Assembly (NCBI GenBank): GCA_020832405.1 | Contig: JAFIET010000002.1 | Span: forward strand, 62,001-126,000 | Length of the DNA stretch: 64,000 bases | Direction of reading: 5' to 3' | From: Balneolales bacterium | GTDB taxonomy: Bacteria > Bacteroidota > Rhodothermia > Balneolales > Cyclonatronaceae | Shown here: in pieces, positions 3,288-13,949 of the stretch | Layout of the letters: each line of letters opens with the position of its first letter | Position numbering within the stretch: the stretch's first letter is position 1 | Position numbers and translations under genes: made by a program | The notes under the pieces: generated by a model | The model's input: only the letters and a program-made list of their open reading frames with translations | Told to the model about the DNA's origin: nothing | Databases searched by the model: none

Positions 3288-6200
3288 TTGATTACAAGGG
3301 AAATACTTAACCATAGCCCTTTTGGCTTCCTCGAGTGTCGCGTAATCCGCGACAGTACCAAGCGTGTTTCTGATTTTGAAATTGTAAACTATAACCCAAA
3401 ACTGGAGCTCATGCTGGCCAAGCTCAGCATCGGGCTCAATCAAAACCGTATCGGTGCCCTGTTTCCGGGCTTTCATACGCAGGACCGTGAATGGGGGCAG
3501 ATCATCTCGTTTGTAGAGAGCGATAACTTTACACTTGAGATCGAGACTTACTTTGTTACCCTCGACGACTGGGTCCGGCTTTTTGTTTTTAGACAGGCTG
3601 GTGAAGCTGATCTTTTAGGGGTGATGGTTTTCGACACCAATTATGAGCGGAAACGAATTGAAGAAATCGAAGCACTTTTTGAGGCAAGTCTGGATATGCT
3701 TTGCATTTTCGACTCGAATATGCAAATGGTTTATCTGAACACCCAATGGGAAAACTTTACAGGCTACAAACGCTCTGAGCTGTATCATAATCCGTTTCAT
3801 ACTCTTATTCACCCGGTTGATCAGAGAAATACGCTAAAAAAAATTACAAACCTCACTCTTGAAAACTCCCTTACGATAAGAAACCGGATTATCACCAAAA
3901 GTAAAGAAGTAAAGCATTTCGAATGGAAAGCGACTCTTCAGAATGATCGAATCTATTGTGCTGCCCGAGATGTTACTGCCGAAGTGCTTCAGGCAGAAGA
4001 AGTTGAACTGCTTAATAAGCAGCTGAGAAGCATTCTTGACGCTATGCCAAATTATATTTTTGCCAAAGATCAGCAGGGCAGATACCTGATGGCGAATACG
4101 CAGTTCGCAAACTGGTACGGAATAAGTCCGGATGAAATTATCGGAAAATCAGATGTTGACCTTGGCGTTGATCCCAAGCTGAGCCGTAAATTTACGGCGT
4201 TTGATAAAACGGTTATAGAAAACGGCAAACGGGTAACAATGCCTGAAATGTACGAAATGAACCGTACGAGCCAGGAAAAAGGCTGGTTTCAGACCATTAA
4301 AATACCTTACAGACATCCCGGTTTGGGTGAGATGGCAATTCTGGGTATTTCCACCAACGTTACAAGCCTTAAACAGGCAGAACTGAGTTTAAAGGAAAAA
4401 ACCCTCCAATATGATCTGGCACTAAAAGGCACGAAAGACGGAATCTGGGATTGGGAACTGTTTTCAGGCCGTATGTTTTTTTCGCCCCGATGGAAAAAGC
4501 AGCTTGGATATGCAGAAGAAGAGCTCTCTGCTACGATTGATGCTTTCGTGGATCAGTTACATCCTGATGATAAAGCATTTGTGCTTGGCTACCTTGAGAA
4601 ATTCGTTTGTGGCGATGAGGCAAATTTTGATATCGAATACCGGATGCGCCACAAACACGGCTATTACCGTTGGATTAACGGCCGGGCCGCAGCTATCAGG
4701 GATGCAAGCGGCAGAGCTGTCCGAATTGCAGGGTCAAATGCTGATATAACCCAGCGAAAGCAGGCTGAAAAAGACCTGCTGCGCCTCAAACAGATATTGG
4801 TTGAGACCAACAGGATTGCCCGTATCGGAAGCTGGGAGTATGTACCCGTAACCGATACCCTGATCTGGACAGAGGTTTGCTATCTTATTCACGATCTTGA
4901 ACCGCATGCTATCGGCGAACTGTCTCTAAAAGATGCCAACAGTTTCTGCCATCCTGAATTCAGAAACACGTTCGATTCAGCTTTTCAGGATTTGCTGGAA
5001 AAGGGCAAAAGCTACGATCTTGAAATTCAGATTTTAACAGCGGCAGGGCGGCGTGTTTGGGTAAGAACTATTGGTCAGGCAGAGATACAGGCTGGCAAAC
5101 CGGTACGTCTTTTTGGTTCCGTTCAGGATATTGATGAGCGTAAGCGTAACAGAGATGAACTTGCAAAAACAAGAACAAGGCTTAGTAACATTCTGGCAGA
5201 TATGTCGGATGTTGTTTATAGCTTTGATTTGAAAGAAAAAAAACTCCTTTTTATCACACCCTCTGTAGAGCAGCTTTACGGTTTCCCGAAAGAGCGGTTG
5301 TTTGAGGATGTAAATGTATGGCGGGCACACACCCACCCTGATGATCTGCACGCTTTTGATCAGCTTTCTAAAGTCCTCACAGAAGGGGTCGATTCCGAAA
5401 TGGAGTACCGGATAATCGATTCGGAAGGCAGGGTGAAATGGGTGAGAAACCGTACCAAGGTTGTTTATGATGATGATCAAAACAAAGCAAGGCTCGACGG
5501 TTTCAAGATTGATATCACCAACCAGAAAAATGCGGAAATAGAGGTTGCCGAATACTCACGCATGCTTAAAACACTGTTCGATATCGTTCAGGTTTTCATC
5601 AGTGTGGAACGGCAGCAGCTTGATGAAACCATTCAGGATGCCCTCATTTCCATTGCAGATCTCGTAGAGGCAGACCGCGTGTACATCTTCGATTTTAATG
5701 AATCACATACCGAAATGTCTATGCGGTACGAGTGGTGCAAAGCCGGTATCGTTTCAACGGTTCAGCTTTATACAGCTTATGATATTTCAAATATTCCGGA
5801 AATAGGTGAAAAAATAACGAAACACCAGAATGTTGATATTTCTGATGTTTCTGAGATGAAAGACGGGGCTTATAAAAAGCTATTAGAGTACGACAAGGTG
5901 AAGAGCATTTTCTGCTCCCCCATGGTTGATAATGGCGTGGTTGTCGGCTTTACAGGCTTTGAAACGGTGAGTGAGCTGAAGCACTTTTCTTTAAATGAAA
6001 AAGATTTACTTCGGGTATTTGCCAAGGTGCTCGTGAGTCTGAAGCAACGGATGCTTCTTGAAGAAACCCTCGAAAAGGCAAGAAACAAAGCCGAAGAAGC
6101 ATCTAAAGCAAAGTCAATGTTCCTTGCAAACATGAGCCACGAAATCCGTACCCCGCTCAATGGGGTAATAGGGTTTTCGGAGCTGCTTGCATCAACTTCG

Positions 6201-7715
6201 CTGGATGAATTACAGGGGCAGTACCTGGAGTACGTGCTTACTTCTGGAAGGTCGCTCATGAATATCATCAATGATATTTTGGATTTTTCCAAAATTGAGG
6301 CCGGAAAACTCGAAATCGAGTATATACCTACAAATATCCGCAAGCTTGTTGAAGAAACAGCGGATATAATCAGTTATCAGGCTACCGCCCGTAATATCGA
6401 AGTTATTCTTGATATCGGGCTTGACGTTTCGGATACTATTCTTACAGACTCAATCCGGCTGAAGCAGGTTTTGCTTAACCTGATGAACAATGCCGTTAAA
6501 TTTACTGAGAAAGGCACTGTAACGATCCGTTTGTCGGAGCAACGCCTGAGCCCGGGCCGAAGCCGGTTTTTGTTTGAAGTGCAGGATACCGGCATCGGAA
6601 TTCACCCGGACCGCCAGCAGCGTCTCTTTAAAGCTTTTTCGCAGGCTGATAATTCAGATACCAGAAAGTACGGCGGCACCGGTCTCGGGCTTGCGATTTC
6701 GGCTTCCATCATTAATAAACTGGGGTCAAAAATTAACCTGCGCAGCAAGCCGGGCAAGGGTAGTTTATTTAGCTTCACGCTCGTTAGTAATGTTGTGCTC
6801 AACGAGGAAGCAGATATTACCGAACGAATCATGCAGAAGCAAAACGCTGGTTCGGAAATCGGTAAAACCATAAAAATCCTTATCTATGAGCCCTGTGAAG
6901 CGCAAGCTGATCTTATGAAGCTGATGATCCAAAAACTTGGATTTGTTTGTGAAATTTGCAGTTCAGTTACTCAAGTGCAGCATATACTGGAAACCAGCCG
7001 GTTGGAAAATATTGCGATGATTTCACTGAACCCCAATCAGCAATTCGAAATTGATGCCATTTTTAAATGCTGCACGGCTGCAGCAAACACACATCCCGTC
7101 GTATTTGCCTACAGTCCGTCGCACCGGGCACGGCTCAGCTCCCTTTTTAGCCGGTTGAGTAAGAATCAGTATATTACTTTGTCAAAACCGGTGAAATGGC
7201 ATCAGCTGCGGGAGGTACTGGCCGAAGCTTCAAAGCAGGCTGAAAATAATCAGCATCGAAATACGGCAGTGTCCACACCTCAGGAATCAGGGCTGAAGCA
7301 AGAGTCGCCGCCGGCCGTTGAAAAGAAAGAACTGAAGCGGGTACTCGTTGCCGAAGATGTGCCGCTGAACCTTACCCTGATTAAAACAGTTTTAAGAAAA
7401 TTGCTGGGTGATGTTCACATCATAGAGGCTGTTAATGGTCAGCAGGCAGTTGAATTAACGATGCGGGTGAAACCTGATTTTATTATCATGGATATTCAGA
7501 TGCCGGTGATGAGCGGCATCGACGCTACAAAAGAAATCCGCAGCATGGGTGAAGATTTCAGTGCAATTCCAATAATTGCGCTTACAGCCGGTGTTGCCAA
7601 AGAGGAAAAACAGCGTTGTTTCGATTCCGGCATGTCCGGTTTTCTTTCAAAACCACTGCGTACTACCCTTTTGAAAGAAACCCTCGAAAACCTGGGGCTT
7701 TTATCGAAGGTATAA
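3288..7715 (+). CDS. Multi-PAS/GAF hybrid sensor histidine kinase with receiver domain
   Basis: A 1475-residue hybrid kinase with no clear transmembrane segment, so probably cytoplasmic. Order of domains, with rough positions: a PAS-like start (1-110), five PAS domains (about 118-235, 240-360, 370-495, 500-625, 630-755), GAF (765-925), HisKA with phospho-accepting His951 in MSHEIRTPLNG, HATPase_c (N box NLMNNAVKF, DTGIGI, GGTGLGLAIS), a degenerate receiver without the phospho-Asp (about 1200-1310), and a complete C-terminal receiver with Asp1402 in IIMDIQMPVMSG. The start is TTG: an AAGAAGG-like ribosome site lies 6-7 bases upstream of 3288 and no in-frame ATG fits. A FIST sensor protein follows after 86 bases, probably in the same transcription unit. 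Confidence 0.9.
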   Translation: MITREILNHSPFGFLECRVIRDSTKRVSDFEIVNYNPKLELMLAKLSIGLNQNRIGALFPGFHTQDREWGQIISFVESDNFTLEIETYFVTLDDWVRLFVFRQAGEADLLGVMVFDTNYERKRIEEIEALFEASLDMLCIFDSNMQMVYLNTQWENFTGYKRSELYHNPFHTLIHPVDQRNTLKKITNLTLENSLTIRNRIITKSKEVKHFEWKATLQNDRIYCAARDVTAEVLQAEEVELLNKQLRSILDAMPNYIFAKDQQGRYLMANTQFANWYGISPDEIIGKSDVDLGVDPKLSRKFTAFDKTVIENGKRVTMPEMYEMNRTSQEKGWFQTIKIPYRHPGLGEMAILGISTNVTSLKQAELSLKEKTLQYDLALKGTKDGIWDWELFSGRMFFSPRWKKQLGYAEEELSATIDAFVDQLHPDDKAFVLGYLEKFVCGDEANFDIEYRMRHKHGYYRWINGRAAAIRDASGRAVRIAGSNADITQRKQAEKDLLRLKQILVETNRIARIGSWEYVPVTDTLIWTEVCYLIHDLEPHAIGELSLKDANSFCHPEFRNTFDSAFQDLLEKGKSYDLEIQILTAAGRRVWVRTIGQAEIQAGKPVRLFGSVQDIDERKRNRDELAKTRTRLSNILADMSDVVYSFDLKEKKLLFITPSVEQLYGFPKERLFEDVNVWRAHTHPDDLHAFDQLSKVLTEGVDSEMEYRIIDSEGRVKWVRNRTKVVYDDDQNKARLDGFKIDITNQKNAEIEVAEYSRMLKTLFDIVQVFISVERQQLDETIQDALISIADLVEADRVYIFDFNESHTEMSMRYEWCKAGIVSTVQLYTAYDISNIPEIGEKITKHQNVDISDVSEMKDGAYKKLLEYDKVKSIFCSPMVDNGVVVGFTGFETVSELKHFSLNEKDLLRVFAKVLVSLKQRMLLEETLEKARNKAEEASKAKSMFLANMSHEIRTPLNGVIGFSELLASTSLDELQGQYLEYVLTSGRSLMNIINDILDFSKIEAGKLEIEYIPTNIRKLVEETADIISYQATARNIEVILDIGLDVSDTILTDSIRLKQVLLNLMNNAVKFTEKGTVTIRLSEQRLSPGRSRFLFEVQDTGIGIHPDRQQRLFKAFSQADNSDTRKYGGTGLGLAISASIINKLGSKINLRSKPGKGSLFSFTLVSNVVLNEEADITERIMQKQNAGSEIGKTIKILIYEPCEAQADLMKLMIQKLGFVCEICSSVTQVQHILETSRLENIAMISLNPNQQFEIDAIFKCCTAAANTHPVVFAYSPSHRARLSSLFSRLSKNQYITLSKPVKWHQLREVLAEASKQAENNQHRNTAVSTPQESGLKQESPPAVEKKELKRVLVAEDVPLNLTLIKTVLRKLLGDVHIIEAVNGQQAVELTMRVKPDFIIMDIQMPVMSGIDATKEIRSMGEDFSAIPIIALTAGVAKEEKQRCFDSGMSGFLSKPLRTTLLKETLENLGLLSKV

Positions 7716-7804
7716 GCCAATTGGTCGAAAAACAGTTGGGAAATGAATCATTCTGTCCCTACTTTCTGTTTTAAAAATAACGTATTTAAATTAATGATAT
7801 CTTG

Positions 7805-8911
7805 ATGAAACCATGCTATTATTCCGATTTTGGTAATGTTGATAAGGCCGTAATGGAAATTAATGCAGCCGGGAGCTGTGCAACTGCCTTAATCTTAATT
7901 TCAGAAACACATCGAAAAGAGACAGATCAGATAAAAGCTTTTTTTGAAAAACTGGAAAAGCCCTTTTTTGGAGCGTTTTTTCCCGGTTTAATTTCAGGAT
8001 CGAAGCGCAAAGAAGCCGGTTTCGTTGTGATCCCTCTGCCTGAACCTGTGTTTACAATGGCTATTCCCTTCGGTTTGGCAGAATCGGAGTATGATGCGCT
8101 GCTTGATCGCTTTACAGCCGAAGCGGGCCCCGGAATCCGGACTGTTTTTTGTTTTGTGGATGCTATGGGGCAGGGTAAGCCTGAAAGTGTTTCTTTTTTG
8201 TACAATTATTTCGGAATCGGGGTAAACTACCTTGGTGGTGGCGCAGGTTCACTTTCTTTTGAATCATTTCCCTGTGTTTTCAATGAGCAGGGGATGTATG
8301 CAAACGCAGCCATGATCGGGCTTTCATCACTGTCTGTTGCTATTGGGGTAGAACACGGCTGGCGGCCGGTTTCCGAGCCGCTTAAAGTGACCAAAGCGAC
8401 CGGAAACATGCTCGAGGAGCTTGAGTGGAAACCTGCTTACCAAGTGTACCGGGAGCTGGTTGAAAAACACTCCGGTTTAAAGTTTACTGACGATAACTTT
8501 TTTGATATTGCTAAATCATATCCCTTCGGAATGGTTAAGATTGATTCAGAAATGGTAATTAGGGATCCTATTCAGGTTGTCGGAAATAAGATTCATGTAG
8601 TTGATGAAGTACCTGAGGGCGAGTATGTAAGCCTGATGCACGGCAATATGACATCTCTGTTAGAGGGAGCGCGAGCAGCAAGAAATAAATCAGCCCTTCA
8701 AAACAGCAGCTCTGAGGGCCAATTTTCATTTTTGTTCAGTATCGACTGTATATCCCGCTCACTATATATGGGCGATGATTTTGATGCCGAGCTTAGCATC
8801 ATAGCAGGAGATGGTGAAGTGAATGGCGCACTCACTATCGGCGAAATAGCCAATTCCGGGGAATTATTTCTCGAAATTTACAACAAGACAGTTGTGGTCT
8901 GCCGCTGGTAG
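7805..8911 (+). CDS. FIST N/C domain sensor protein
   Basis: About 368 residues matching the FIST (F-box and intracellular signal transduction) architecture: an N-terminal domain to about residue 180 with the GGGAGSLSFE turn, then a C-terminal domain including VTKATGNMLEELEWKPAYQVY and a late SxxCxxR-like SIDCISRSLYMG segment. FIST proteins are thought to bind small ligands and usually sit beside, or are fused to, signalling domains. Here the gene lies directly downstream of the multi-PAS kinase, so it may supply a ligand input to that kinase; that is inference. A TTG three bases before the ATG is an alternative start. No good Shine-Dalgarno is visible, and ATG is preferred. A strong terminator follows. 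Confidence 0.85.
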   Translation: MKPCYYSDFGNVDKAVMEINAAGSCATALILISETHRKETDQIKAFFEKLEKPFFGAFFPGLISGSKRKEAGFVVIPLPEPVFTMAIPFGLAESEYDALLDRFTAEAGPGIRTVFCFVDAMGQGKPESVSFLYNYFGIGVNYLGGGAGSLSFESFPCVFNEQGMYANAAMIGLSSLSVAIGVEHGWRPVSEPLKVTKATGNMLEELEWKPAYQVYRELVEKHSGLKFTDDNFFDIAKSYPFGMVKIDSEMVIRDPIQVVGNKIHVVDEVPEGEYVSLMHGNMTSLLEGARAARNKSALQNSSSEGQFSFLFSIDCISRSLYMGDDFDAELSIIAGDGEVNGALTIGEIANSGELFLEIYNKTVVVCRW

Positions 8912-11877: not shown

Positions 11878-12486
11878 TCAGAAAAGGAGTGAGTTGTTAC
11901 CTCTTTTTCCTTTTTCGCTGGTTTCAGTTGTGTCGGGCGGGGTAGTTGCTTTTTCTTCGGTTTTAAGGCGGAATCTGGCGGCCTTCTTTTTCTGAGATTC
12001 AGAAGGGGCACTGCTCTCGGATTCTCTGTTTAGTTGCTCTTCAAATAAGCTGTTGATATAGCTTATGTTATCGGTGTAAAAGCTGTCGTTTGCGGTTCGG
12101 TAGGGTTCTGAAAGTTTATCAGTACTGCCAACGCTACCGTCAATTTTACAAAAGGCACCTTCATCGATTTTGATAATCTTACACTGAACTGTACCGCAGA
12201 TTTGCGCATTTTCGTGAATATGCACTTTTTCACTTGCCTGTATATTTCCGGCAACTTTACCATATACATGCACTGAGTCAGCAAAAATATTACCGATAAC
12301 AACTGCCCCTTCAGAAATAACCAGATTCTGCTGACAATAAATATCCAGCATTAATGCGCCTGATATTTTTGAATTTGCGAAAGCAATTAACCGGTTATCT
12401 TTAATGAGAGAGTTTCTCCCCAGCATGCAGACATTTTCAAAGTCTGAAAATTCTTTCTCTTCGGGTTTAGGTTTATTTTTTAGCAT
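11878..12486 (-). CDS. Bactofilin (polymer-forming cytoskeletal protein)
   Basis: A 202-residue bactofilin-family protein. Residues about 20-125 form the beta-helical core with regularly spaced hydrophobic and glycine turns (SGALMLDIY, GNIFADSVHVYGKVAGNIQASEKVHIHENAQICGT is the middle part, in pieces). It is flanked by a short charged N-terminus and a long polar C-terminal tail (about 140-202) rich in Ser, Glu and Lys. Bactofilins polymerise without nucleotide and organise cell shape, stalks or chromosome-partition complexes in other bacteria. No M23 peptidase, the common partner, is adjacent. Instead, the next gene upstream on the same strand is an actin-fold protein, separated by a terminator, so the two are neighbours but probably not one transcript. 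Confidence 0.85.
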   Translation of the reverse strand: MLKNKPKPEEKEFSDFENVCMLGRNSLIKDNRLIAFANSKISGALMLDIYCQQNLVISEGAVVIGNIFADSVHVYGKVAGNIQASEKVHIHENAQICGTVQCKIIKIDEGAFCKIDGSVGSTDKLSEPYRTANDSFYTDNISYINSLFEEQLNRESESSAPSESQKKKAARFRLKTEEKATTPPDTTETSEKGKRGNNSLLF

Positions 12487-12698
12487 TATTCCATTTCGTT
12501 TAATTGCAGCCTGTAATGCGCCTCAGCAGAAAAATCTGATTTACTGACAAATTTATTTATAATTGAACCACAAGGTTTAGGTTTTAACATTCAGCAGGAA
12601 CAGTATATTAAAAAACGCTAAGAGTTTTTTGTTATAAACAACTGCTGTAAATGCTAAAAGAGGGGCTGTTGAGTCTATAATTTAGGATATTCCTTCGC

Positions 12699-12736
12699 AA
12701 AAAAAAACCTCATGTCACAAAGAACATGAGGCTTTT
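12699..12736 (-). terminator. Rho-independent terminator after the actin-like gene
   Basis: An 8-bp stem (12708-12715 with 12724-12731) that on the minus strand is followed by at least eight T. It lies 22-60 bases past the actin-like stop codon. Confidence 0.8.
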
Positions 12737-12757
12737 AATTTTAAAATTCTAATGCTT

Positions 12758-13780
12758 TCAGCTGTCCTTGAAGAGGCTGATAACAGTTTGAGCGTTACCT
12801 ATATCTATTCCCACACAAACTGATTTATTACCTTCTGCCATTTCAAATGAATTCAGGCAGTATCCGATGCTTGCCTGAAAAGCAGGGCGCTCAGGAATAA
12901 ATACCTCAAGAATGGAATCAAATTCTTCTTTGAAGCAATTAACAAGATCTTTGTAATAGGCACCGCCTCCTACAAGAACAAGCGATTCAGCCGTATTAAA
13001 ATCTTCATCAGACCAATGGTTACGGATCAGCGATGAAATTACTTCATTATAGTAATTTTGAAGGGTCCGTGAACGAACTTCAGTGAGGTCAAGAGGGCGG
13101 CGGTTAACTACAATTTTGCCCTTTTGGAAGGCAATATCAAACTGATGTTCGGTGCGCAAACCAAGATAATGGGATTCATTTAATTGGTCCATCGCGCGGT
13201 TTATGGCATACCGAAGGCCGCTTCCCGAAGCCATGGTACGTTTAACCATACCATCGGGGGTACTGAGGGCAACTTCAACAGTGCCGTACCCAAGGCTGAC
13301 AATGAAAAAATTACTCAGCTTTTTTTCGGGTATATCGCGAACAGCTTTATTTGCTGCTTCAATTTCACCTATGATGTTAACATCAGCTATTTCAAGCTGT
13401 CTGGTTTTGTACCCATCGCCTCCGGCTGGGCTTGAATCATAAACAATGTTATCAATTCCGGATACGAACTCGATAGCCTGGCGCTTGTTGATGTTTATTG
13501 TTGAAAGCGGAAAACCCGTTGTAACTACAAGCGGCTCATGAATAAATTTAGTTGCTACCAGAAGCGCTGCCTTAATAAGAAGCCCGTAATCTGCTTCATT
13601 TACATAGCTGTTAATTGCTTTGTGTGGGTTCTTTCCCTCTGTAAGTGCAAGATTACCAATTAAATAATCCGTATTGCCATCCTGGATTTTGAGACCGTTA
13701 AGTTCATACCTTGTAACGCCCTTAAGCTGTACACTGTATGCCTCGATAACACTGGGGAATACGACTGATTGGATTTCCAT
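12758..13780 (-). CDS. Actin-fold ATPase-like protein with apparently permuted phosphate-1 motif
   Basis: About 340 residues, counted from the ATG at 13780; a TTG at 13837 gives 19 more, with an in-frame stop just before it. The protein resembles ParM/Ta0583-type actins but in rotated order. It starts at the beta strand that normally follows phosphate-1 (QSVVFPSVIEA). It continues through VVTTGFPL, a phosphate-2-like strand at 160-170 (IVSLGYGTVEV, with Ser where the usual catalytic Asp is), and the adenosine motif VLVGGGAYYKD at 267-277. The connect-2 helix (AFQASIGYCLNS) comes next, and a phosphate-1-like VGIDIGNAQTVI lies at the very C-terminus (323-334). No phosphate-1 is found upstream in any frame. 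Polymerisation and ATPase activity are unproven. The motif order is seen directly; calling it a circular permutation is my inference. Confidence 0.75.
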   Translation of the reverse strand: MEIQSVVFPSVIEAYSVQLKGVTRYELNGLKIQDGNTDYLIGNLALTEGKNPHKAINSYVNEADYGLLIKAALLVATKFIHEPLVVTTGFPLSTININKRQAIEFVSGIDNIVYDSSPAGGDGYKTRQLEIADVNIIGEIEAANKAVRDIPEKKLSNFFIVSLGYGTVEVALSTPDGMVKRTMASGSGLRYAINRAMDQLNESHYLGLRTEHQFDIAFQKGKIVVNRRPLDLTEVRSRTLQNYYNEVISSLIRNHWSDEDFNTAESLVLVGGGAYYKDLVNCFKEEFDSILEVFIPERPAFQASIGYCLNSFEMAEGNKSVCVGIDIGNAQTVISLFKDS

Positions 13781-13949
13781 ATAATTAATGTGTTGTTTGA
13801 ATCTAAGCGTTGTCTGCTTCAGTAAAATTAGTGTCAATTATAAAGGAAAAAAAGCTAATAGCAAAACGGTATATTTACTCATACACTTTCTTTTCCGCTA
13901 TTATTCTAAGCAATAATACGCTTTTTAAACCCACTTTTTTCAAAAACTG

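Follow-up and report, generated by a model that had tools for sequence, protein, structure and literature searches.

To our knowledge, all described actins share one chain order. In the archaeal actin homologue Ta0583 (2fsj) the phosphate-1 motif comes first, as it does in the Pfam family ALP_N. Plasmid ParM/StbA proteins (pCBH ParM, 6ixw; the Alp families, ALP_N, PF17989) and the chromosomal actin MreB are likewise of ordinary order. Bactofilins are cytoskeletal proteins of another kind, and pairs of a bactofilin with an M23 peptidase are a known shape module that sets local curvature in other bacteria (PMC10945521). For the BacA-LmdC module of this kind no actin-like member is described, and mention of a terminal Trp tail was not found (PMC10945521). 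A 2025 paper on chromosomal ParMs leaves permutation, Bacteroidota and bactofilins unmentioned (PMC12270681), and no natural circularly permuted actin, ParM or ASKHA protein was described in the open-access text searched.

The locus considered here lies in a stretch of 64,000 nucleotides (hereafter the window) from a genome of 3.96 Mb in 188 contigs, and encodes an actin-like protein of 340 residues (N-terminal sequence MEIQSVVFPSVIEAY; C-terminal sequence SVCVGIDIGNAQTVISLFKDS) that opens on strand beta-3 (MEIQSVVFPSV) and closes with the phosphate-1 hairpin GIDIGNAQTVISL. With plasmid ParM/StbA it has the fold and the motif set in common (approximately 18% identity to the rotated protein over 303 aligned columns), but it differs from them in its C-terminal phosphate-1, in the Ser that replaces the phosphate-2 Asp, in its chromosomal location and in having a bactofilin rather than ParR as neighbour. 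It resembles MreB as a chromosomal actin fold for which a cell-shape role is plausible, while differing from it in chain order and in the weakness of the profile similarity. With the BacA-LmdC module it shares the bactofilin partner, and an M23-domain gene adjoins the actin in three loci. Coordinates of the features are collected in Table 1.

Table 1. Features of the permuted actin-like gene and its neighbourhood in the window
Feature	Position	Strand	Evidence
Permuted actin-like protein, 340 aa + stop	12758-13780	-	ORF, homologues, AlphaFold2
Residues 3-11 at the new N-terminus, with strand E3-9 and PSV; counterpart of the ParM strand that follows the phosphate-1 hairpin	13748-13774	-	hhalign to ParM profile; DSSP; P9 and S10 invariant
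Connect-1, residues 131-148, invariant Glu139	13337-13390	-	E in 30/30
Phosphate-2, residues 158-170, FIVSLGYGTVEVA, with Ser162 in place of the canonical Asp	13271-13309	-	S in 27/30, G in 2, N in 1; E169 in 30/30
Adenosine motif, residues 266-276, SLVLVGGGAYY	12953-12985	-	GGG in 30/30
Connect-2 helix, residues 299-314; corresponds to the C-terminus of ordinary ParMs	12839-12886	-	P299 and G306 in 30/30; helix 299-314 in model
Phosphate-1 hairpin GIDIGNAQTVISL, residues 324-336, permuted segment	12773-12811	-	Rotation tests, alignment; modelled strands E322-327, E331-337
Bactofilin of 202 aa (PF04519) whose tail looks unstructured and ends in -NSLLF	11878-12486	-	Pfam E 1.9e-17
Hairpin and U run between actin and bactofilin genes, terminator-like	12703-12736	-	-18.3 kcal/mol, z -4.06 for 12690-12750; listed on opposite strand

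Chain order and its conservation

Judged by the order of motifs along its sequence, the protein is a ParM/Ta0583-type actin that has undergone circular permutation in nature. A permutation of the actin fold had been proposed in the preliminary description, which placed phosphate-1 in the C-terminal segment VGIDIGNAQTVISL; its coordinates for that segment (12773-12814) were correct, all the motifs that it quoted were found in the protein, and the proposal itself is supported by rotation tests, by the optimum of a profile-profile comparison and by the chain order of homologues. Against canonical families the rotated sequence outscored the native order, as that description had anticipated. Moving the last 23 residues to the front raised the Pfam ALP_N score from 39.7 to 48.4 bits (cut-off, 26.3 bits) and extended coverage of the profile from positions 16-143 to 1-143, and the score against a ParM profile rose from 76.7 to 90.8 bits. 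In hmmsearch against plasmid ParMs, rotation improved 30 of 30 proteins, by 11.0 bits on average. When rotations were compared by hhalign with a profile built from 11 plasmid ParM-like proteins of ordinary order, the score was 180.4 for the native sequence and 201.8 on a plateau of cuts at 308-320, falling off on either side, and the optimum thus coincided exactly with the predicted cut.

A family profile used in hmmsearch aligned with BiP in permuted order (residues 316-339 with BiP 17-40, 130-183 with 185-239 and 252-289 with 335-374), and phmmer with a single protein as query returned only a chance match among PDB sequences. Similarity to the MreB profile was weak (hhalign probability 85%), and in the rotation scan against it the score was governed by other regions; the MreB_Mbl profile did not match the window protein and gave 12.7 bits for the homologue L010, against a cut-off of 27.

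Over 30 homologues, distributed among several families of the phylum, have the permuted order, on which basis a frameshift or a wrong start was rejected. In this comparison, which the preliminary description had recommended, the order is kept throughout, and an N-terminal phosphate-1 occurs in none of the homologues. Nine proteins from the same order (39-95% identity) align end to end with identical motif order, five further permuted members come from one order, and relatives occur in other classes as well; among 129 genomes of the order 19 have such a homologue, as do 23 of 395 genomes sampled across the phylum. In all those that were read, PSV comes a few residues after the start and GxDxGN 15-58 residues before the stop. 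A set of 198 genomes yielded eight Pfam ALP_N matches, each of which begins at profile position 16-21 and hence misses phosphate-1. No intermediate with two copies of phosphate-1 was present among 30 proteins examined. The cut appears to be ancestral to the family and, thus, stable and functional.

An artefact, in which an N-terminally truncated or mis-started actin happens to end in a DxG motif, would draw on the fact that this motif is short and common among nucleotide-binding folds, but it is very improbable given that the tail is invariant, that scrambled tails moved to the front gave almost no gain, and that when about 1,550 other 23-residue segments were fronted per protein, none equalled the real tail in four proteins and one did so in a fifth. 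Every homologue read has the identical order, and for most the reading frame opens just 2-12 codons ahead of the Met, which leaves no room for a normal N-terminus. The window ORF is read from the ATG at 13780 (-). Translation might instead begin at 13837, where there is an in-frame TTG, but this codon is without counterpart outside the genus.

The permuted actin is chromosomal in every genome seen. No permuted relative was found on plasmids, phages or viral contigs, and an origin from these was rejected for that reason; PHROG 691 is a family of ordinary order, as far as an alignment covering 27-318 of 329 positions shows.

Active-site motifs and predicted structure

All five actin-fold (ASKHA) motifs were located and are conserved, phosphate-2 with a Ser in place of Asp. 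The C-terminal residues G324, D326, G328, N329 and T332 are unchanged in all of 30 members (37-60% identical to the window protein), and so are Glu139 of connect-1 and the GGG loop. The segment IVSLGYGTVEV, which the preliminary description had likened to phosphate-2, is present at that position, but departs from the canonical motif in that the first Asp is Ser162 and the second is Glu169. Whereas ParM-like proteins have IIDIG.xT.D here, the first Asp is Ser in 27 of the 30 permuted proteins and the second is Glu in all of them. From what is established for actins, these motifs predict nucleotide binding with altered hydrolysis; loss of the phosphate-2 Asp could leave hydrolysis weak or abolish it.

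AlphaFold2, supplied with 30 natural sequences, returned a confident actin fold (pLDDT 89.9, pTM 0.91) with a C-terminal hairpin (strands 322-327 and 331-337; 10-residue blocks in this part average 88-95). The best Foldseek matches were Ta0583 (TM 0.72 by target length; E 1.4e-15) and pCBH ParM (TM 0.70), followed by other Alps, MreB and Hsp70, and the model has the duplicated RNase H-like fold; because Foldseek follows chain order, these TM scores leave out the moved hairpin. The protein also matches Pfam MreB-like_C. In three dimensions the tail would occupy the position of beta-1/beta-2.

The loss of the phosphate-2 Asp throughout the family would also suit a permuted protein that does not polymerise, namely a nucleotide-dependent switch within the actin/Hsp70 superfamily, comparable to an assembly adaptor, through which bactofilin would be regulated with no filament being formed, and BiP was the first profile match among PDB sequences. 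We consider such a switch unlikely, as structure searches rank the filament-forming ParM, Ta0583, Alp12 and CorM above Hsp70, and Pfam and PHROG matches go to Alp and partition families.

Linkage to a bactofilin

Of 31 readable regions, 25 have a bactofilin gene 3' of the actin gene and in the same orientation; later loci bring the figure to 30 of 38. The identity of divergent bactofilins beside the actin was confirmed by Pfam. We know of no earlier case in which actin and bactofilin genes are paired. An adjacent bactofilin is absent from six regions (L056, L057, L058, L061, L064 and L067), so the pairing is not obligatory; nothing consistent was found when loci without a bactofilin were searched for another aromatic-tailed neighbour. 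On a tree in which L039 and L041, not read themselves, were given the label of the near-identical L042, linkage requires three changes and is present on both sides of the midpoint root, suggesting that it is probably old, with losses. In the window the two genes are separated by 271 bases, and the terminator-like hairpin in this gap implies that they may not share all transcripts and that their transcription may be partly uncoupled there. In one lineage (L070, L079 and L080), the genes run in the order M23 peptidase-like protein, permuted actin, TPR protein and ordinary bactofilin, after which come genes towards AtpB (ATP synthase subunit A). In L067, from a lineage without a bactofilin neighbour, a gene for a 1,239-residue pentapeptide-repeat protein (4308-8024, +) lies directly upstream of the permuted actin.

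These neighbourhoods bear on whether the protein could be a chromosomal segregation motor of the ParM type, with bactofilin anchoring DNA instead of the envelope. Plasmid ParM profiles match the family, and the partition protein phrog_691 matches L010 (E 2e-22); however, the conserved neighbour is a bactofilin, no conserved ParR-like gene, which would be expected to encode a small DNA-binding protein, was present nearby among 29 oriented loci, and, as described above, the search of plasmids, phages and viral contigs gave no relative with the permuted order. A segregation role is accordingly given little credence.

Most bactofilins beside the actin have an aromatic end. With the TPR-type loci excluded, all 27 carry a terminal Trp (22), a terminal Phe (3) or a penultimate Trp (2) (the window, L052-L055, L059, L060, L062, L063, L065, L066, L068, L069, L071-L078, L082, L147-L150 and L153), whereas a terminal or penultimate Trp or Phe occurs in none of 13 bactofilins of ordinary type, comprising 10 encoded elsewhere in the genomes and those of the three TPR-type loci, which were grouped with them post hoc. 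Strictly by adjacency, the tail is found in 27 of 30 actin-linked bactofilins and in 0 of 10 encoded elsewhere. A 2x2 table on the tail motif gives p of about 8e-11, a statistic that is exploratory because the sequences are related and the pattern was spotted afterwards. The aromatic end is preceded by a long low-complexity stretch, the bactofilin of the window being among those with this arrangement, and the Trp/Phe tail is a candidate docking motif.

Proposed mechanism and significance

In the proposed derivation of the permuted protein, the chain was opened between strands beta-2 and beta-3, and the former C-terminal connect-2 helix became joined to the former N-terminal phosphate-1 hairpin through a linker of about seven residues; an opening at this point would keep the folded core and the nucleotide cleft. 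The nucleotide, presumed to be ATP, would be held through Asp326 of phosphate-1, Glu139 of connect-1 and the GGG adenosine loop, and its turnover would be slow owing to the Ser at the phosphate-2 Asp position. Assembly into filaments would be head to tail, as in other Alps. The actin may then be recruited to, or may organise, the dedicated bactofilin polymer through the flexible tail that ends in Trp or Phe, such that two unlike filaments could act as a single envelope or cell-shape module.

We regard it as probable that the protein is a permuted ParM/Ta0583-type actin that binds nucleotide, forms filaments and works with a dedicated bactofilin polymer in such a module. The wider proposal, of a phylum-wide family of permuted actins that forms with its dedicated bactofilin a two-polymer cytoskeleton joined by the C-terminal Trp/Phe tail, is advanced more tentatively, at slightly less than even chances; the composite system would be one not described before. 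Cells of Cyclonatronum proteinivorum strain Omega, most likely a member of the genus represented by the window (order Balneolales), range from semicircles to whip-like filaments (PMC6243061), and these shapes, together with the role of bactofilin-M23 pairs in curvature, make envelope shape the leading guess for the function of the actin, which would dock by way of the bactofilin tail.

The actin fold ranks among the most conserved, and a natural permutant of it indicates that the nucleotide cleft tolerates a cut beside the phosphate-1 hairpin; if the permuted actin polymerises, the filament contacts tolerate that cut too. With this family, the dependence of actin folding and cleft closure on chain connectivity can be tested in a natural protein, and the bactofilin link brings with it a testable tail motif and cultivable hosts.

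The window genome encodes a separate MreB, and so does each of the 18 near-complete relatives that were tested, which makes the permuted protein an additional actin; replacement of MreB by the permuted actin was rejected on this ground. One genus (L042 and L040 in G291; L041 and L043 in G250; G473) has a pair of permuted actins, and wherever the neighbourhood was read each is accompanied by a Trp-tailed bactofilin of its own.
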